Source of the DNA: an uncultured Anaerolineae bacterium
Lineage (GTDB): Bacteria; Chloroflexota; Anaerolineae; Anaerolineales; Villigracilaceae
Direction of reading: 5' to 3'
NCBI GenBank assembly: GCA_937120535.1
Contig: CAKZJX010000096.1
Location: 1 to 32,377, forward strand
Length of the DNA: 32,377 nucleotides
The notes below the pieces were generated by a model. That model worked only from the letters and a program-made list of their open reading frames with translations, had not been told where the DNA came from and ran no database searches. Shown here one piece after another: positions 10,499-24,011 of this stretch. How positions within the stretch are numbered: the stretch's first letter is position 1; each line of letters opens with the position of its first letter. The position numbers and the translations under genes were made by a program.

Positions 10499-11716
10499 CT
10501 AGCGCACCAGTTCGATCATAGGTGGAACGGTGGCGTCATAATTCTCTTCATCGTTGTAGCGCACGATGCCGTCAAACGTGCCTCCGATCTCCACTGTGTA
10601 ACCGATGATCTGGGTGCGGTAGGAGTCAGTATTGGCTGTACCCAGCAGGACGATATTCGACGCTGGGGCCAGGATCGTGCCCTTGAGCAGCTGATCGTTG
10701 GTGCCGTTGATGCGAATCTCGCTGTTGTTGGTTATCGGGAAGTAAATCAAGAGTCCTTTGAACGGTCCGCTGGTGGGTGCCGAGAGGTGCAACGCGCCGT
10801 TGCCATTCCAGCGAATGTTTCCTGACTCCATGTAGATCACCACTTCATGGCCGATTAGGGTGTCGTTTCCATTCAGTGAGAAGCTTCCGTTCACGCAATA
10901 CACGCCGGGATTGAGGTGCGTCACGCCGCTAGGCGGGAAGGATCCATTCACTCGACCGGGGTTGAGAGTATTGCCAACTTTGGTAGCGTTTTGGGTGCAG
11001 GTAGGCCGGGGAAGGTTGAAATTCGGAGGATATGGAACTTGGGGCGCGTTGTAGACAATACCTGGTCCTACCATTTGTGGGCAGGATTGTGAGGCGACCA
11101 TGGTAATCGAAGGGGTGATCAGATCAGGGACGCCGTTGCTGGTGAAGCCACAATTGGTCGAGGAATTAACGAAGACCCCACCGCCAACTGTTCGTACACG
11201 AGGATTACCATGCATCCAGAACGTTCTTTGCTGATTTGGCTTTAAAGCCACAATCGCATTTCCAAAGAGCAGGGGTTGAACTGAAGGCGGTCGAGCGCGC
11301 GCAATGGCTTCTACGCAATGGTTCACCTGCTGAACGCCGATCGCTCGGCCAAAGGAGGTGCGAGTGACCGAGCGGATGATCACCTGCACATACTCGGTGT
11401 TTCCCACGTAGGGATTGGGTTGGCCGCCACAGCCAGGAACCGGCGGGCTATGAACTTCTACGGTGTTGGTGGCGCCGTTGTTGTTAAAACCGTTGCTGGC
11501 AGCGCGTTCTTGTGCTTGTTGTTGCCAGTCGTTTTGCCCGCGCGCTTTGGCAAGAGCAGCGTCCAGCACGGCAGCATCGGCCACGTTTTGTGCCTGTCGT
11601 CGTTCGGTGTAGGCCAGACCAGCATCGACTGCGGTGGCAGTGAGGGCTAGCATGGCGATCATGGCCAGAACAATTAGGATCAGCGCCTGTCCTCTTTCAG
11701 TCTTTGAATGATTCAT
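10499..11716 (-). CDS. TadG-like pilus/surface protein, paralogue 1
   Basis: A 405-residue protein. The TadG-like N-terminus has TERGQALILIVLAMIAMLAL as the membrane helix, then VDAGLAYTERRQAQNVADAA, the region shared by Tad minor-pilin-like proteins. The C-terminal half is predicted to be a repetitive beta structure: GVTHLNPGVYCVNGSF, LSAPTSGPFKGLLIYFP, GTILAPASNIVLLGT and IIGYTVEIGG recur almost unchanged in the two paralogues at 14-17 kb. The start at 11716 (MNHSKTERGQ) is chosen for GGAGG 5 nt upstream; 16 upstream codons are leader. It is probably inserted in the envelope with the C-terminal domain outside. It lies apart from its paralogues, downstream of glmS, with its own likely promoter. 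The exact function is unknown. Confidence 0.8.
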   Translation of the reverse strand: MNHSKTERGQALILIVLAMIAMLALTATAVDAGLAYTERRQAQNVADAAVLDAALAKARGQNDWQQQAQERAASNGFNNNGATNTVEVHSPPVPGCGGQPNPYVGNTEYVQVIIRSVTRTSFGRAIGVQQVNHCVEAIARARPPSVQPLLFGNAIVALKPNQQRTFWMHGNPRVRTVGGGVFVNSSTNCGFTSNGVPDLITPSITMVASQSCPQMVGPGIVYNAPQVPYPPNFNLPRPTCTQNATKVGNTLNPGRVNGSFPPSGVTHLNPGVYCVNGSFSLNGNDTLIGHEVVIYMESGNIRWNGNGALHLSAPTSGPFKGLLIYFPITNNSEIRINGTNDQLLKGTILAPASNIVLLGTANTDSYRTQIIGYTVEIGGTFDGIVRYNDEENYDATVPPMIELVR

Positions 11717-11786
11717 AATAACCTCCTTCCAAATAACCAAATCTCTGCTGCCTTGATAAGACACCAGTACAGAGTAGCTATTCTCA

Positions 11787-11854: not shown

Positions 11855-13696
11855 TCACTCTACGGTGACCGATTTGGCCAAATTGCGCGGTTGATCTACA
11901 TCCAAGCCGCGCAGGGCGGCGATGTGATAAGCTAACAATTGCAGGGGCAAGACGGTGATCGCCGGCGAGAGCATCCACGGTGTTTCGGGAACCCATAGGA
12001 CATGATCGGCTATCGAAGCCACCAATTCATCTCCGTCGGTAGCCACGGCGATCACTTTTCCGCCGCGTGCTTTGGCTTGTTGAATTTGGGAGATCATTTT
12101 ATCGTGCCAGGGATCGTTAGGAGCTAAACAGATAACCGGCATTTCTTCGTCAATCAGGGCAATCGGACCGTGTTTCATCTCACCGGCCGGGTACCCTTCG
12201 GCATGAATGTAGGTGATCTCTTTCATTTTCAACGCCCCTTCATAGGCAATCGGCATGTTAATGCCGCGCCCCAAGTAGAGACAGTTGCGGATGTCTTTCA
12301 GGAGATGAGCTAGCTTGATGACCTCCGGCTCTCGCTCAAGAGTGCGCCCGGCCAAGTCGGGGATGAAGCGCAGGTCTGCTACCAGCGCTCGCCGTTTTGT
12401 CTCGTCGATCGCGCCGCGCAGATCAGCCAGCAGGATGGCCAGCATGTATTGATCCACGATCGGGGCGGTGAAAGCTTTGGTAGACGCTACGCCGATCTCC
12501 GGGCCGGTTTGCATCGAGATATACCCGTCGGCAATGCGCATCGCCTGGGAGCCAATGGCGTTGACAATGCTCCATAAGGTCGCTCCTTTGCGCCGGCCTT
12601 CTTCCATGGCGGCCAGGGTGTCGGCCGTTTCTCCGGATTGGCTAATGGCAAGGACGACGGTGTTCGAGTCAATGATCGGGTCACGATAGCGAAACTCGGA
12701 GCCGATCTCCACTTCTACAGGAATGCGCGCTATGGTTTCGATTAAGTATTTGCCTACCATCCCAGCATAGGCAGCCGTGCCGCAGGCAGTGATGTAGATT
12801 TTTTGGATTCTTCTGGCGAGCTCTGGGGTCAAGTTTAGTTCCGGAAGGCGAATCTTGCCTCGTTCAAAATCCACGCGGCCGGCCAGAGTGTCGGTGAGGG
12901 AGCGGACCTGTTCGTGAATCTCTTTCTGCATAAAGTGACGATATTCGCCCTTTTCGGCCGAGACCGGATCCCAAGGCACAACCTGGACGACCGGAGGTAT
13001 CGGCCGGCCGTCGAGCGTCTCGATCTGCACACGATGCCGGGTGACGATCGCCATTTGGCGCGACTCCAGAAACAAGACGCGACGGGTATGTTCGAGAATG
13101 GCAGGAATGTCAGAAGCGACAAACGTTTCCTGATCCCCATAGCCGATCACCACGCCGCCGGCATTCCCCAGGCGAGCAGCCACGATCTTGTCCGGCTCAT
13201 CGGCCGACAGGAGCACGACCACGTTGGCGCCTTGCAAGAGTTGAAAGGTGCGCCGCGCCGCTTCGACCAATCCCAAGCCCGAAGCCAGGTAGTGTTCTAC
13301 CAAGTGGACGATGGTTTCGGTATCGGTGTCGGAGTTAAACGTAACGCCTTCGGCCGTGAGCTCTTGGCGCAGTTCCAGAAAATTTTCAACGATCCCATTG
13401 TGGACGACCACCACTCGACCAGTTTGCCCAATGTGGGGATGGGCGTTGCGCGCACTAGGGGCGCCATGGGTGGCCCAACGCGTGTGACCGATGCCGATCA
13501 CGCCGCTCATCGGTTGTTGCTCGAGCAGCTCGGCCAAGGCGGAGAGCTTGCCAGCCTGTCGGCGAATTTCAATGTGGCCGTTCTGTAAGACAGCAATCCC
13601 AGCCGAATCGTAGCCGCGGTATTCCAATCGTTTCAAGCCGTTGAAGATAATGGGAGTGGCGTTGCGATGCCCGAGATAGCCAACAATACCACACAT
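11855..13696 (-). CDS. glmS: Glutamine--fructose-6-phosphate aminotransferase
   Basis: A 613-residue enzyme that makes glucosamine-6-phosphate from fructose-6-phosphate and glutamine, the entry to UDP-GlcNAc and peptidoglycan. It starts MCGIVGYLGHRNA; Cys2 becomes the N-terminal nucleophile of the glutaminase domain. RLEYRGYDSAGIAV, GHTRWATHG and the RVVVVHNGIVENF region follow. Two SIS sugar-isomerase domains carry SQSGETADTLAAM and STKAFTAPI, and the end DVDQPRNLAKSVTVE is the conserved C-terminus. The length is standard. GGAGG lies 10-12 nt upstream of the ATG. A 367-nt leader with a candidate ribozyme precedes it, pointing to feedback by GlcN6P. The product feeds the same pathway as MurA encoded 6 kb away. 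Confidence 0.97.
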   Translation of the reverse strand: MCGIVGYLGHRNATPIIFNGLKRLEYRGYDSAGIAVLQNGHIEIRRQAGKLSALAELLEQQPMSGVIGIGHTRWATHGAPSARNAHPHIGQTGRVVVVHNGIVENFLELRQELTAEGVTFNSDTDTETIVHLVEHYLASGLGLVEAARRTFQLLQGANVVVLLSADEPDKIVAARLGNAGGVVIGYGDQETFVASDIPAILEHTRRVLFLESRQMAIVTRHRVQIETLDGRPIPPVVQVVPWDPVSAEKGEYRHFMQKEIHEQVRSLTDTLAGRVDFERGKIRLPELNLTPELARRIQKIYITACGTAAYAGMVGKYLIETIARIPVEVEIGSEFRYRDPIIDSNTVVLAISQSGETADTLAAMEEGRRKGATLWSIVNAIGSQAMRIADGYISMQTGPEIGVASTKAFTAPIVDQYMLAILLADLRGAIDETKRRALVADLRFIPDLAGRTLEREPEVIKLAHLLKDIRNCLYLGRGINMPIAYEGALKMKEITYIHAEGYPAGEMKHGPIALIDEEMPVICLAPNDPWHDKMISQIQQAKARGGKVIAVATDGDELVASIADHVLWVPETPWMLSPAITVLPLQLLAYHIAALRGLDVDQPRNLAKSVTVE

Positions 13697-13867
13697 GGTT
13701 GCGGATCCTCCAGATGAGAGAGATGGATGAGTGTCCCGCGCTGGGCCGGCGAGTCAGCCTATCTCCTGACGCGGCCGCTCGGTAGAAACACGCCATTCCC
13801 GGCGCTTTGTCCGCCCAGTTGCCTGCGCGGCGTTGGGCGCCGAGATTTGAGAAACGACTGGAGGGAA

Positions 13868-14024
13868 AGGATCGGGCTTGGCGCGGCCCGGAGGGCATCC
13901 GCTGATCGCTCGATTTTCCTGCAGCTGTTATAGGCTGCAGTTAGCTCCATCTTGCAATGGAGAACCCTCATCCTCGTCACCTTTTCTTGGGTCGATATCC
14001 CCCGCCAAGAAAAGGCCATGCGCT
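13868..14024 (-). ncRNA. Candidate glmS ribozyme/riboswitch with an insertion in the core
   Basis: The minus-strand leader of glmS carries the ribozyme blocks in the right order. AGCGC at 14024-14020 is the predicted cleavage site, between A14024 and G14023. A perfect 11-bp stem follows (14005-14015 with 13980-13990). Next come TGACGAGG (13979-13972) and GAGGG (13969-13965). Then ATCGAG and AGCGGATGCCCTCCGG (13914-13888), where CCCTC pairs with GAGGG, then CGGGC...GCCCG (about 13889-13872), matching the next helix. Unusual: between GAGGGTT and ATCGAG, where the known core loop is only a few bases, two extra hairpins are inserted (13945-13962 and 13919-13940). AGCG replaces the usual GGCG. Assigned by comparison with remembered Bacillus and Thermoanaerobacter sequences. 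Activity is unproven. Confidence 0.65.
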
Positions 14025-14069
14025 TTTCCTTTCCCGAATCAACGGTGCTTGCAATATAAGCTGCTCTAA

Positions 14070-14099
14070 ATTATACCTGATTTATGGCAATTGCTCCAA
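14070..14099 (-). promoter_or_regulatory. Promoter of glmS
   Basis: The minus strand reads TTGGAG (14094-14099), an 18-nt spacer and TATAAT (14070-14075). Transcription would start near 14063, about 40 nt before the predicted ribozyme cleavage site, which fits a self-contained ribozyme-glmS transcript. Confidence 0.65.
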
Positions 14100-14252: not shown

Positions 14253-15551
14253 TCAGCGGATAAATTCGACCGAGGGATAGATCATCGCATCGTAGTTTTG
14301 TTCGTCTTTGTACTTGACAACGATATTGGACATGCCGGTCACTTCGATCCGCAGACCGATGATCTGGCTGTGGTAGCCATAGGCCGAATCGCTGCCGGCC
14401 AGCCGGATGAGCGAAGTGGGCGCCAGGATGGCGCCTCGGAAGCGCGACTCTGCATTTCCGTTGAGAATGATACGTGCAGTATGGCCTAAAGGGGCGTGCA
14501 TCAATAGGCCGGCCAAGGGCCCGCCGCCCGGAGCAGCGAGATCGATTTTGGCGCTTCCACTGAAACGCACCGTATCCCCGCCGATCACCAGGACTACCCC
14601 CGTGCCTTCCAAATCTTGCTCAACCGTGATATCCCCGTCGATGCAGTAGACGCCAGGCTTGAGTTTCGTGACTCCTGGTGGAGGAAAATTCTCCCCCCAG
14701 TGACCTGGCGACATGGTGGTTCCATCTTCGCTCACGCGGGCGATTTGTGTGCCACAGGAAGGGCGAGGCATGACGAACGGAGGGGGATAAGGGAGAGGCG
14801 ACGCTCCTACAATTGGACGAATCGGAAAACTACCTCCCTGAGCGCGCTGCATATACCCCAGGCCAGGCGCCTGACGTTTGATCAAGTACGGTTTCTGGAT
14901 CAAAGCGCCGCCTACGATGATAAATGGACTGTCATCTTGTATGGCAATACTGCCATTCCCTTGCTGGATGAAGGCGCAAGTCGGATGGTCAGAGTTGACC
15001 CAGATGCCGCCGCCTTGCACTTCAAGCGTAGCCTCGCCATGCACCCAAAACGCTCGGTGTTGTTGGCAATTGCTGTGCGGAGCCAGGCTCACTACCGCAA
15101 AGCCATCGAGCATTTCTCCCCAGCTCGGTGGAACCACGCGGCTGATCGCTTCCACAGTGTTGGTCACGTGGCGGATGCCGACGGTGGAGGCCAACAGGGT
15201 GCGATAGCGTGCGGTCAGCACAACTTGCAGATAGTGCCGTTGGCCGGCGTAGGGCCCGCTTATCGGCGGGTTGTACACTTGCAGATCGTTCAGCAGACCA
15301 TCGGTTTCAAAGCCGTTCTGTCGGGCTTGTTCAAGCGCCGCCAGGCGATAATCTCCACCCTTGATGTAGGTTACACCAGCCGCTAGGGCGGCGGCATCGG
15401 CAGCATTTTGAGCCTGACGACGATGAGCCAAAGCCATCCCGCCGTCGATCACCAAGGCGGCGATGGCAAGCAAGGCAAAGAACGCCATCGCTACCAGGAC
15501 AATGGATTGACCGCGCTCAGAGCGAGAACAAGCGATAAACCTCTCATTCAA
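14253..15551 (-). CDS. TadG-like pilus/surface protein, paralogue 2
   Basis: About 432 residues from a proposed TTG at 15551, which overlaps the stop of the preceding gene (TTGAATGA). An ATG at 15599 would overlap more deeply and has no ribosome site. The N-terminus SERGQSIVLVAMAFFALLAI is the membrane helix, followed by VIDGGMALAHRRQAQNAADA. The C-terminal half repeats the shared module: GVTKLKPGVYCIDGDI, LAAPGGGPLAGLLMHAP, FRGAILAPTSLIRLAG, SQIIGLRIEVTG. It is the most divergent of the three, with an insertion around residues 215-290 (the PSCGTQIARVSE region is longer). It is the last gene of the Tad operon and probably translationally coupled. Function is inferred only from the N-terminal family. 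Confidence 0.75.
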   Translation of the reverse strand: MNERFIACSRSERGQSIVLVAMAFFALLAIAALVIDGGMALAHRRQAQNAADAAALAAGVTYIKGGDYRLAALEQARQNGFETDGLLNDLQVYNPPISGPYAGQRHYLQVVLTARYRTLLASTVGIRHVTNTVEAISRVVPPSWGEMLDGFAVVSLAPHSNCQQHRAFWVHGEATLEVQGGGIWVNSDHPTCAFIQQGNGSIAIQDDSPFIIVGGALIQKPYLIKRQAPGLGYMQRAQGGSFPIRPIVGASPLPYPPPFVMPRPSCGTQIARVSEDGTTMSPGHWGENFPPPGVTKLKPGVYCIDGDITVEQDLEGTGVVLVIGGDTVRFSGSAKIDLAAPGGGPLAGLLMHAPLGHTARIILNGNAESRFRGAILAPTSLIRLAGSDSAYGYHSQIIGLRIEVTGMSNIVVKYKDEQNYDAMIYPSVEFIR

Positions 15552-16791
15552 CCAGCTCAACCGCCGGAGGTTCTGGGGCTTGATAATTTTGGTTGGCATT
15601 ATAGTTAATGTAAGTCGTGCTGTTGCCACTCAGGTTGACGGTGTAGCCAATCACCTGGCTGTTCAAGCCGCTTGTACTGCCGGTGCCTTCAATCGTGATT
15701 TGCGAGGAGGGAGCCAGGATCGTGCCGGTGAAGGTCGACTCCGAATTGCCGTTGATGACGACTTCGTTGGAATTTCCTTCCGGCAAGAAGAGCAACAGTC
15801 CGGCAAATGGCCCAGTGGTCGGTGCACTCAACTGAATAGTAGCACCGCCGTTCCAGCGGACGTCGCCATTGTTCACTCGGATGACCACCTGGCTGCCATA
15901 CAGTTCGTCGTTGGCATTCAGGCGAAAGTTACCATTGACACAGTAGACGCCAGGTTTCAAGTGAGTCACCCCAGAAGGTGGGAAGGTGCCGGTATAGTTG
16001 CCGGGGCTTAGGGTGTTGCCGTCTCGATGGGCTGGACCTGTACAGGTGGGGTTAGGATAGACCGGCTTCGGTAGTGGAGGCGCGCCGGTGACGATGCAGC
16101 TAGAGGGGATGTTGAGCGCGCCGGGGGCATAGGAAATGCCTCCCACAGCCTGCAGACAAGGAGCCGTGAGCTGGGCGGAAGAGCTATTATTGAAAAAGGC
16201 TGCCTGATTGCCCATGCCGCTGCAACTTGAGTTGACATAGATGCCGCCGCCAGTGACAATGGTGTTTGCGTTCCCTTGGTACACCACTGCTTTACACTGA
16301 GTAGGCGCTAGGCCAACGATTGCGTTCCCAAAGAACATCGGACTATACACCAGTGGTTTTGCCCGCCCTACCGCCTCTACCCTATTCGTGATTGTGTGAA
16401 TCCCGATCACCCGAGCAAAAAAGGTTGGAACTCTTGCCGTAATGAAAACTTGAATGTATTCACCGTTGCCGGCGTAGGGCCCGCTAATTGGGGGATTGTA
16501 GATCTCAACGTTCACATCTGGATGGGTGGATGCGGGCGTTGGATCTTGGTCAGCGTAGTGGTTGCTGGCAGCGCGTTCCAAGCCATGAGCAAGCATGTCT
16601 TGGCTGCGCACTTTGGCCAAGGCAGCATCGAGAGCAGTTGCATCAGCAGCGTTTTGGGCGCGGCGACGTTCGGCATACACGTTGCCGCCATCCACGGCCA
16701 GCGCCGTGAGCGCTAGCAGAGTAAAGACGGCCAACCCGATCAGGAGGATGGCTTGACCTTGTTCACGGACTATAAGGGACAACGATTTCAT
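15544..16791 (-). CDS. TadG-like pilus/surface protein, paralogue 3
   Basis: About 415 residues. Two ATGs compete: 16797 has GGGAG only 1 nt upstream, while 16791 has it 7 nt upstream, so 16791 is used. After the EQGQAILLIGLAVFTLLALT membrane helix comes VDGGNVYAERRRAQNAADAT. The C-terminal half has GVTHLKPGVYCVNGNF, LSAPTTGPFAGLLLFLP, FTGTILAPSSQITIEG and SQVIGYTVNLSG, nearly collinear with paralogue 1 at 10.5-11.7 kb. Conserved Cys residues (VYC, a PTCTG site and several in the middle) suggest disulfides outside the cell. It lies between the TadE-like gene and paralogue 2 in one operon. Confidence 0.8.
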   Translation of the reverse strand: MKSLSLIVREQGQAILLIGLAVFTLLALTALAVDGGNVYAERRRAQNAADATALDAALAKVRSQDMLAHGLERAASNHYADQDPTPASTHPDVNVEIYNPPISGPYAGNGEYIQVFITARVPTFFARVIGIHTITNRVEAVGRAKPLVYSPMFFGNAIVGLAPTQCKAVVYQGNANTIVTGGGIYVNSSCSGMGNQAAFFNNSSSAQLTAPCLQAVGGISYAPGALNIPSSCIVTGAPPLPKPVYPNPTCTGPAHRDGNTLSPGNYTGTFPPSGVTHLKPGVYCVNGNFRLNANDELYGSQVVIRVNNGDVRWNGGATIQLSAPTTGPFAGLLLFLPEGNSNEVVINGNSESTFTGTILAPSSQITIEGTGSTSGLNSQVIGYTVNLSGNSTTYINYNANQNYQAPEPPAVELVE

Positions 16792-16817
16792 GTTCATACT
16801 CCCTTCAAGATGGCAAG

Positions 16818-17276
16818 TTAAGGACAAGGGGGGGTGAGGATGGTATCGGTCACCGACGCTCGCAGGCGAATGAAATCCTGCCCAAGAAAGGGGCTAAGGA
16901 AAGATCCAAGAGGAAGCCAATCTAAACGATAGTTGTGGATGAGCGTAACGGTGATCCCGTTCCCTTCACATGCCGGCCCGGTGTATGTGATGTGAACTTG
17001 TAACTCGCCTTGGTCGAACATACGGCGGATCACGCCATTATTTCCTGCTGCGTTTGCCACACGCTGATTGATGCCAGCCAAATCAGTCGGGCGCATTGAG
17101 CCGTAGAGTGCTCCTTCTTGAGCTGCGTCTCGCATGGCGACGAAGTAGAACAGAGCAATGCCGAAATAGATCACACCGGCCAGCAGGATCAGGATAAAGG
17201 TCATGCTAATGGCCATTTCCACCAGGCTTTGGCCTGTTTCAACACTGTGGGACAGGGAAGAGCGTTTTTCGTTCAT
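16818..17276 (-). CDS. TadE-like pilus assembly protein
   Basis: A 152-residue TadE-family protein. SVETGQSLVEMAISMTFILI and the following hydrophobic stretch (residues 13-45) form the pilin-like N-terminal helix with a Glu near the helix start, as in TadE/TadF pseudopilins. AMRDAAQEGALYGS follows, corresponding to the TAAREAARYGA motif of its neighbour. The soluble domain has one Cys pair (PACEG and the C-terminal PPCP). Its ATG overlaps the stop of the upstream TadE gene by 4 nt (17273-17276), indicating coupling. TadE-like proteins are thought to be processed by the prepilin peptidase, which is encoded just upstream. Confidence 0.82.
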   Translation of the reverse strand: MNEKRSSLSHSVETGQSLVEMAISMTFILILLAGVIYFGIALFYFVAMRDAAQEGALYGSMRPTDLAGINQRVANAAGNNGVIRRMFDQGELQVHITYTGPACEGNGITVTLIHNYRLDWLPLGSFLSPFLGQDFIRLRASVTDTILTPPCP

Positions 17277-22128: not shown

Positions 22129-23580
22129 CTACCCTTTGATGATTGCCACGGGCCGCAGGCGGGCCACCTTGCGGGCAATTCCTACAGCGCTTACCGTTTC
22201 GACCACAACATCCACATCCTTATAAGCCTGAGGGGCTTCTTCGGCCAGGCCGGGCATGCTGCCGGCACGCACGGCAATGCCGCGATGCTCCAGCTCGTTG
22301 CGCAGCAGCTCGCCGCGCACTTCTTTTTTGGCCTTGGCGCGGCTCATCACGCGCCCTGCGCCATGACAAGTTGAGCCGAATGAACGGGCCATGCTATCAG
22401 CCGTGCCCACCAACACCCAAGACGCCGTGCCCATGCTACCCGGGATGATCACCGGCTGACCAATCGAACGGTATTCTTCCGGCAATTCGGGCGTGCCCGG
22501 GCCGAAGGCCCGTGTGGCTCCTTTGCGATGCACGCAGACTTTCACTGAACGGCCTTCAATGACATGGGTTTCAATTTTGCCCATGTTATGGGTGATGTCA
22601 TACACCTGGGTAAGCTGCCAACCGTGTTTGAAATTCTGAGCAAACGCTTCTTCAAAAGCTTGGCGGGCGGCATATGCTAGAAGTTGTCGGTTGGCAAAAG
22701 CAAAGTTGGCGGCGGCGCGCATAGCACCTAGATAAGCCTGCCCTTCAGGGCTATCCATCGGCGCACAGACGAGCTCGCGATCGGGTAGCTCAATGCCGTA
22801 GCGCTTTACCGCGCTTTGAAAGGACTGCACGTAGTCAGTGCAGACCTGATGGCCCAACCCGCGCGATCCACAGTGTATCTGAACCGCCAGATTGCCCTGC
22901 ACCAATCCCATTGTGCTGGCTGCCTGCTCGTCGAAGATTTCTTCGATGACATCTACCTCGATAAAGTGATTGCCCGCTCCCAACGAACCGATCTGCTCCC
23001 GACCGCGCTGCTTGGCGCGTTCGCTCACCTGCTCCGGTGCAGCCTCTGCCAGGCGGCCGTTCTCTTCGGTGCGGCGGATGTCGTCTGCGGCGGCATATCC
23101 CTTTTTCAAGGCCCAATGCGATCCTTGGCGGAGGACGTGTTCTAGTTCTTCTTTGCTAACGCGCACAACCCCTTCACTGCCTACGCCGCTCGGGCAATAT
23201 TTGTACAATAAGGTAGCTAAGGTATCCATCTTTGGCTTGGCCGCCTCGTAGGGAATGCCCGAAGCCAGCAGTCGTACGCCGCAGTTGATGTCGTAGCCGA
23301 TGGCCCCTGGCGAGACTACCCCATGCGGATATTCTGTGGCTGCTACGCCGCCGATTGGGAATCCGTAGCCTTGGTGTACATCGGGCATCACGATTACATA
23401 TCCCACCAGCCCAGGCAAGGTGGTTGCGTTGACGGCTTGCTCTAGGGATTTGTCTTCAGAGACCTGTTCCAGCAGCTCGCGGCTGGCAAAGATGCGTACT
23501 GGCACGCGCATGTCCTTGCGATAGGAACGCGGGATTTCCCATTCGTAGTCGCTGATCTTGATCAAATGATTAAGGTTCAT
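22129..23580 (-). CDS. rtcB: RNA-splicing ligase RtcB
   Basis: A 483-residue GTP-dependent ligase joining 2 prime,3 prime-cyclic-phosphate (or 3 prime-phosphate) and 5 prime-OH RNA ends, for RNA repair or tRNA splicing. Metal-binding Asp97 and Cys100 lie in [11 protein letters not shown]. The His ligands lie in [21 protein letters not shown] and THNMGKIE. The guanylated His lies in [12 protein letters not shown]. The N-terminal [13 protein letters not shown] motif and the final [12 protein letters not shown] are canonical. The start is at 23580, with GGAGGAGAGG just upstream; an ATG at 23601 overlapping the archease stop (TAATG) lacks a site. It lies directly after archease, its activating partner, so the two form a functional operon. 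Confidence 0.96.
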
Positions 23581-23600
23581 ACCTCTCCTCCGTTCTCGCA

Positions 23601-24011
23601 TTACACATCAAACACAATTGTCACATTTAACCCGTCTTCTGAGGAGCGAATGGCGAGGTTGTGGTATGTCACTGCTTTGATGACCTTATTGATGCGTTCT
23701 AGGGGGGCGCCGCTCATCTCGACCTGGAAGCGCATCACGTTGGGTGTCTCTTCGAAGCGGATAGCGAATTGATCGAAGCCCAGGTGTTCTTGTTCGGCGT
23801 AGTAGATCAATTCGGTCAGAAAGACCACCAGCAGGCTTTCAGCGTCTGGACTTTCGGTGTGAAACGAACGGGATAGCCGAGGCCCTTCGCTCAATTGCAT
23901 GCCGGCCAGGGCGTTCATTCCGAGCGCCGCTTCGCGAAATAGGCCAGGCAAATCAGACGCCCAGACCTGCAACGCCCAATCAGCAGTGTGAGGCACTTCA
24001 CGAAATGGCAT
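23601..24011 (-). CDS. Archease, RtcB activator
   Basis: A 136-residue archease. [18 protein letters not shown] gives the conserved HTAD start with the metal-binding Asp. [16 protein letters not shown] and the final [12 protein letters not shown] are also typical. Archease promotes guanylylation and turnover of RtcB, which is encoded 20 nt downstream. There is no Shine-Dalgarno. A TAAAAT hexamer ends only 9 nt before the ATG, so the mRNA may have almost no leader. The length is normal for the family. Confidence 0.93.

Follow-up and report, generated by a model that had tools for sequence, protein, structure and literature searches.

The window, by which we mean the whole stretch of 32,377 nucleotides that was analysed, carries on its minus strand a glmS gene whose 5' leader matches the glmS ribozyme family. 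A cmscan run against Rfam places RF00234 at 13787-14035 on the minus strand with 43.7 bits (gathering score 37, E 3.3e-7). The alignment spans the whole model with nothing excised from the element, and an RF00234 search of the window's own genome returns the same place. The position is that of a glmS 5' leader: the gene starts at 13696 and the protein directly downstream is GlmS by TIGR01135. From AAGCGCATGG at 14016-14025 it follows that A(-1) is 14024 and G1 is 14023. The features are listed below; P2.2 positions are numbered after PMC7125110, and A1 and A2 are two alignments of relatives described further on.

13787..14035, minus strand: glmS ribozyme, whole RF00234 match (cmscan, 43.7 bits; own-genome search)
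14023..14024, minus strand: predicted cleavage site A(-1)/G1, from the AAGCGC sequence; position by homology to the family, without cleavage data
14017..14023, minus strand: P2.2 5' strand GCGCAUG, with C2, G3 and C4 paired, A5.A53, a bulged U6 and G7-C52
13980..14015, minus strand: P1 hairpin, 11-bp stem (14005-14015 with 13980-13990), from the sequence
13972..13978, minus strand: GACGAGG, forming the P2.1 5' strand and a segment of the active site, with little or no variation in A1 and A2 (P2.1 pairing taken from PMC11602151)
13965..13969, minus strand: P2 5' strand GAGGG, partner 13891-13895; P2 is paired in 99.1% of cells in relatives
13945..13962, minus strand: inserted hairpin 1, with a GNRA-type loop GCAA; supported by folding and covariation (helices 3 and 4, 96.8 and 92.6% of cells paired)
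13919..13940, minus strand: inserted hairpin 2; supported by folding and covariation (helix 5, 87.5% of cells paired)
13899..13914, minus strand: AUCGAGCGAUCAGCGG, comprising P2.1 3' strand, linker and P2.2 3' strand (AUCGA...GCGG), from the sequence and the relatives' alignment
13891..13895, minus strand: P2 3' strand CCCUC, from the sequence
13873..13890, minus strand: P3 hairpin CGGGC/GCCCG (13886-13890 with 13873-13877), from the sequence
13858..13864, minus strand: switch strand CCUCCAG (anti-Shine-Dalgarno) in the P3-P4 joiner, 7 bp with 13707-13713; supported by relatives
13800..13842, minus strand: P4 domain with GGACAAAG (13805-13812), from the RF00234 alignment and the sequence
13789..13795, minus strand: P3.1 3' strand UGGCGUG, pairing with CGCGCCA in loop 3 (13879-13885) over 7 bp with one G-U; seen by eye, without covariation support in glmS leaders
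13707..13713, minus strand: CUGGAGG, the glmS Shine-Dalgarno and partner of the switch strand, 10 bases ahead of the ATG at 13694-13696
11855..13696, minus strand: glmS, glutamine--fructose-6-phosphate transaminase, 613 aa (TIGR01135, 766.2 bits)

The cleavage-site AGCGC and the core segments GACGAGG, AUCGA and GCGGAUG are all present. At the sequence level, without data on the three-dimensional fold, the double-pseudoknot strands P2, P2.1 and P2.2 can be recognised; in the relatives' alignment P2 covaries, and P2.1 is paired in 98.4% of cells yet nearly invariant. Complementary strands for P3.1 (by eye) and a P4 in the model alignment complete the set. Covariance model and covariation among relatives together show that the element is a homologue of the glmS ribozyme, of an expanded two-hairpin subtype; self-cleavage of this RNA is inferred.

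A first-pass annotation, made from sequence alone, had proposed a candidate glmS ribozyme at 13868-14024 with two stable hairpins inserted at 13945-13962 and 13919-13940. All of its block coordinates are confirmed by the sequence, and folding and covariation agree on both hairpins, which did not have to be removed for RF00234 to score above cut-off. The extent was too short: P4 and P3.1 also belong to the element, which reaches about 13789, and the partner strand at the start of glmS (13707-13713) had also been omitted. The switch strand, the regulon and a second genomic copy, all treated below, were not covered by that reading.

Some further observations concern the surroundings of the element. 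A TATAAT is visible by eye at 14070-14075, upstream of the ribozyme; a promoter scan gave no site upstream of the element. Three similar minus-strand ORFs (10499-11764, 14253-15629 and 15544-16827) flank glmS and begin, judged by eye, with Tad/Flp-pilus-like segments. Two adjoining minus-strand ORFs at 22129-24011 resemble, judged by eye, RtcB and archease.

The two-hairpin insert is the most distinctive part of the element. Folded alone it forms two hairpins at -19.3 kcal/mol (z -2.70; 3 of 200 shuffles were equally good). For alignment A2 we reduced 140 usable glmS leaders to 44 that were less than 70% similar and aligned 43 of these; the one left out, L082, has extra sequence elsewhere in the core. 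Across the 43 diverse leaders 94.2% of cells are paired against 69.9 after shuffling, the covariation is 0.673 against 0.205 +- 0.013, and double-change cells number 242 against 74; none of 500 shuffles reached any of these values. A weaker measure is how many pairs show double changes (15), which 31 of the 500 matched. When the structure was slid along the alignment as a control, only 31.7-47.4% of cells were paired. It should be noted that neither the shuffles nor the swaps used below preserve the relatedness of the sequences. The joints to the core are conserved in both A1 and A2 (UAA 3' of hairpin 1, GAAAAUCG 3' of hairpin 2); hairpin 1 carries GNRA-type loops in many members, and hairpin 2 varies widely in length. 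These results show that the insert between the P2 5' strand and the P2.1 3' strand is a covarying side domain. The L082 leader itself carries its extra sequence after AUCGA and not before, which is another site of insertion into the core.

With regard to P2.2, the first-pass annotation had suspected that GCGCA/AGCG would alter one core helix. This did not hold. Among 218 cores with C4, pair 5-53 is A.A in 144, C-G in 71 and something else in 3, position 6 can be any base, and 281 of 286 cores, whatever their kind, have G-C at 7-52. The pairing in the window is the ordinary majority state of the subtype, so that a damaged P2.2 can be ruled out. In the published ribozyme P2.2 is bulged at position 6, and conservation of pair 5-53 is low (PMC7125110). 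Another 58 cores have G (53), A (4) or U (1) at position 4, together with C5, U6 and A53. Their best pairing leaves position 4 bulged and forms C5-G54, U6-A53 and G7-C52, the last in 58/58. This shifted-bulge class comprises 55 of 58 glnA/ada copies and none of 206 glmS copies. In vitro, a bulge shifted closer to the centre of P2.2 restores activity (C4A combined with A6C, a rescue of about 24-fold; PMC7125110). Because of this rescue the glnA/ada copies may still cleave, which is an inference by analogy.

The family is common in Chloroflexota. RF00234 matches were found in 39 of 61 relatives (14 above cut-off), 140 of 298 genomes of the class (89 above cut-off) and 125 of 400 genomes of the phylum (110 above cut-off). 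The last figure corrects the earlier statement that most known glmS ribozymes come from Firmicutes, and the proposal of a Chloroflexota-like genome is confirmed by kinship. Two forms occur, namely a canonical short one with about 10 bases from GACGAGG to AUCGA and the two-hairpin one. Record titles for the latter include at least Anaerolineae, Anaerolineales, Anaerolineaceae, Caldilineaceae, Thermoflexales, Roseiflexus and Oscillochloris. The two-hairpin form is clearly not peculiar to one genome: the same insertion recurs across the class and covaries, which supports the first-pass idea of a divergent, expanded subtype.

A second covariance model, R1, was built from 18 leaders with the cleavage strand AGCGGCUG or AGCGACUG, of which 17 precede glnA and one precedes ada (alignment A1; 18 of 19 were kept, L116 being excluded beforehand). 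Its structure is paired in 96.5% of 681 cells and covaries at 0.385 against 0.195 +- 0.011, a value reached by 0/500 shuffles; 57 of the 500 matched it in the number of additional pair types. Although made from leaders of other genes, R1 still recognises canonical glmS ribozymes, with 19.5 to 31.3 bits (L069, L256, L061 and L063; for instance L061 30.0, L063 31.3 and Brevibacillus L256 27.6 bits), as expected of a relative. R1 matches 172 of 298 genomes of the class, against 140 for RF00234, and within the window's family it matches 73 of 80 genomes. The window element itself scores 72.9 bits in the own-genome search.

Several genomes contain two matches, and that of the window is one of them. 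The second copy, again of the two-hairpin form, lies at G000:C114:37961-38113 (L298:2158-2340; L395) and scores 87.2 bits with R1; the Rfam search listed it neither at E 0.001 nor at E 0.1. When eight loci were scanned with Rfam at E 0.1, four were missed (L298, L137, L262 and L161) and two were above cut-off. The second copy precedes a glutamate-synthase-like gene (PF01645, 343.4 bits); in the ORF that follows, GXGXG is present together with a sub-cut-off GATase_6 match. Given this neighbouring pair, we infer that the window's genome probably has a split glutamate synthase.

Outside the phylum the picture is less clear. The two-hairpin form occurs before a gene with GlmS-type domains on a contig titled Spirochaetaceae bacterium (L161:4256-4398, R1 59.7 bits). 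Of the 58 genomes searched around this locus only its own gave a match and the other 57 gave none, which points to transfer or misbinning; spread among spirochaetes was therefore set aside. Non-Chloroflexota matches such as those from Sphingomonas, Streptomyces and Brevibacillus (L154) were taken as chance, as the cores examined lack a P2 partner. A contig titled Paludibacter (L188) carries the form with 39.1 bits for RF00234 and 72.6 for R1; it is probably misbinned Chloroflexota, though no test stands behind this. Six Deinococcus plasmid records gave no match to the element, and a Deinobacterium control genome gave an RF00234 match.

To survey the genes that follow, cores were selected by pattern and a check of P2, which reduced 391 loci to 327 with a core and 294 unique ones. 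Sixty-four loci gave no core, including the real members L356, L370, L373, L377, L379 and L384 known through R1. Genes were labelled by whichever of eight reference proteins tblastn met first, leaving genes outside these eight unnamed, and the gene families were verified with Pfam and NCBIfam. The 31 short cores precede glmS in 30 cases and a contig end in one. For the 263 two-hairpin cores the first recognised gene is glmS (183), glnA (38), ada-like (20), glutamate-synthase-like (6), a DegT aminotransferase (3), GTPase-SIS (3), CofD with a phosphoglucomutase domain (1) or GlcD-like (1), with eight before a contig end. The GTPase-SIS cases have a GlmS match about 1.37 kb further on. An intervening ORF is found in 5 of 38 glnA cases; four of these resemble the EamA transporter that was identified by Pfam in L392. 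The order ada, EamA-like ORF, glnA on one strand is seen in 3 of 3 longer ada loci that were read (Pfam for L392).

Individual examples include AGCGG-type glmS-like ribozymes before Anaerolineae glnA operons (L133, L137, L221, L225, L240 and others), copies before DegT/PseC-like aminotransferases (L058, L306 and L315), GTPase-SIS copies ahead of a GlmS match (L040, L043 and L052), and single CofD/phosphoglucomutase (L046) and GlcD-like (L274) copies. At one ada locus a 6S RNA lies directly 5' of the ribozyme (L262:1225-1400; RF00013, 73.1 bits). The glutamine riboswitch RF01739 was considered for the glnA leaders and rejected: eight loci scanned at E 0.1 gave no match.

In the relatives a pyrimidine switch strand follows directly after P3. 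When it is optimally paired with the 24 bases upstream of the start codon, the score is 16.59 over 178 glmS leaders, compared to 15.04 +- 0.22 when partners were exchanged between genomes (20 swaps, highest 15.39). For the 96 leaders with both CCTCC and GGAGG, the first flanking position is Watson-Crick in 61.5% (mean of 500 shuffles 33, highest 47) and the second in 53.1% (mean 34, highest 48), with A-U, U-A and G-C pairs all occurring; pairing is not enriched at positions 3-4 or on the other flank. CCTCC is absent from the tract in 72 of the 178 leaders, and only 2 of 15 canonical-form leaders have both motifs. For the group as a whole, complementarity of the switch strand to the Shine-Dalgarno with matched changes is thus shown; that a ligand affects access to the Shine-Dalgarno is inferred.

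Terminators follow a different distribution. A terminator-like hairpin with T-run precedes the first recognised gene in only 2 of 213 glmS leaders; elsewhere it is found for glnA in 22/38, ada in 18/20, glutamate-synthase-like genes in 3/6, GlcD-like in 1/1 and others in 0/7. This amounts to 44 of 65 leaders of the four named classes other than glmS, and 16 of 38 glnA leaders lack such a hairpin. Another terminator definition on a smaller set gave slightly different counts (glmS 1/178 and 0/15, glnA 10/23, ada 9/10). A partner of the switch strand, 7-12 nt long, lies upstream of the terminator in all 44, and contains GGAAGGG in 39. The pairing score of 22.33 is only modestly above that of swapped partners (21.11 +- 0.23, highest of 50 swaps 21.69), one reason being that the partner is almost invariant. 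In most of the 44 rows GGGC of the partner can pair with GCCC of the terminator 5' half, which, as we infer, would form an antiterminator. The second copy in the window's genome likewise has a 10-nt partner (GCUUGCCCUC with GAGGGCGAGC) plus a terminator.

The known glmS ribozyme (RF00234, as in Bacillus and Thermoanaerobacter) shares with the subtype the cleavage-site context, P1, P2, P2.1, P2.2, P3, P3.1 and P4, the core segments and the place before glmS. Its mechanism is cleavage followed by decay through RNase J1 (PMC7125110; PMC2258182). The subtype differs by two covarying hairpins between P2 and P2.1, by a switch strand complementary to the Shine-Dalgarno, and by relatives that precede glnA operons and other genes with terminators. 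McCown, Roth and Breaker (2011) reportedly described Deinococcus-Thermus variants with additional stems in the catalytic core, and nearly all members reportedly stood before glmS. These variants are the closest precedent for the insert, though homology of the stems is not established. The cyanobacterial glutamine riboswitch (glnA RNA, RF01739) likewise precedes nitrogen genes (PMC2864571), but the Chloroflexota glnA leaders have a glmS core and, in the eight loci scanned, no RF01739 match. The bulge shift of the glnA/ada copies resembles that of the in vitro P2.2 mutants (PMC7125110), except that here it occurs in nature, with G, A or U at position 4 in 58 cores. In the literature searched, mostly without subscription papers and limited to titles and starts of abstracts, no item connects glnA, terminators or Chloroflexota leaders with glmS ribozymes.

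Several other explanations have to be weighed. The leader could be a glmS ribozyme of the usual kind, working as in Bacillus through cleavage and decay of the mRNA, with the hairpins as a structural prop and an incidental anti-Shine-Dalgarno match. In favour are the conserved core segments and the RF00234 score above cut-off; moreover, GGAGG can be matched by any pyrimidine tract, and CCTCC is missing from 72 of 178 leaders. Against this, the swap and flank tests are above chance, and the same switch strand finds a partner before terminators in leaders of genes other than glmS, so we consider this reading unlikely. Even less probable is that the hairpins bind a protein or the ribosome, or form a regulated RNase site, outside the ribozyme fold. 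The highly variable length of hairpin 2 and the existence of a canonical core without it would fit. However, conserved single-stranded joints connect the hairpins to the core, and the GNRA-type loops of hairpin 1 in many members suggest tertiary docking, although the latter is an inference.

That the leader is a decayed glmS ribozyme might be argued from the A.A in P2.2 and the modest Rfam score. Yet A.A is the majority state (144/218), the helices covary and the core segments are intact; with the RF00234 match, the covariation and the majority state of P2.2 combined, a decayed or chance element can be practically dismissed.

The explanation that we prefer is a glmS-ribozyme subtype with riboswitch-type expression platforms. 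We regard it as likely: the anatomy and the statistics are shown, and ligand, cleavage and switching are inferred without experiment. By homology GlcN6P would bind a preformed core and support cleavage at 14024/14023. Ligand would also fold the core such that the switch strand is held beside P3 and P3.1 and captures its partner. At glmS the switch strand would pair with the Shine-Dalgarno, and the folded RNA would block translation whether cleaved or not. At glnA operons and the glutamate-synthase-like gene it would capture the GGAAGGG-like strand, so that the antiterminator is lost and termination is favoured. Predicted cleavage leaves the entire switch on the mRNA side, and for this reason cleavage and switch could act together. 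GlcN6P, or a signal related to it, would in this way exert feedback repression on both the synthesis of amino sugars and the supply of glutamine. A shared signal is in keeping with enteric bacteria, whose glutamine synthetase is classically feedback-inhibited by GlcN6P.

A bolder reading, possible but no more than that as a whole, is that the Anaerolineae glmS ribozyme is a regulon-wide riboswitch working mainly by shape change, with a glnA class, marked by the shifted P2.2 bulge, of altered chemistry. Its outputs would be hiding of the Shine-Dalgarno at glmS and termination at glnA operons and the glutamate-synthase-like gene. The glnA class might respond to a different nitrogen signal, for example glutamine, or it might bind but not cleave.

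The glmS ribozyme is the textbook metabolite-driven ribozyme, with one gene controlled by cleavage. The Anaerolineae group would provide a natural two-output set, with ribosome-site and terminator forms of one aptamer, as well as a natural test of the P2.2 bulge shift known from mutant libraries, and would explain why part of the group escapes a general Rfam search. If the reading is true, a large bacterial group uses the glmS fold with ordinary riboswitch outputs, and its glutamine supply would be tied to the amino-sugar level.
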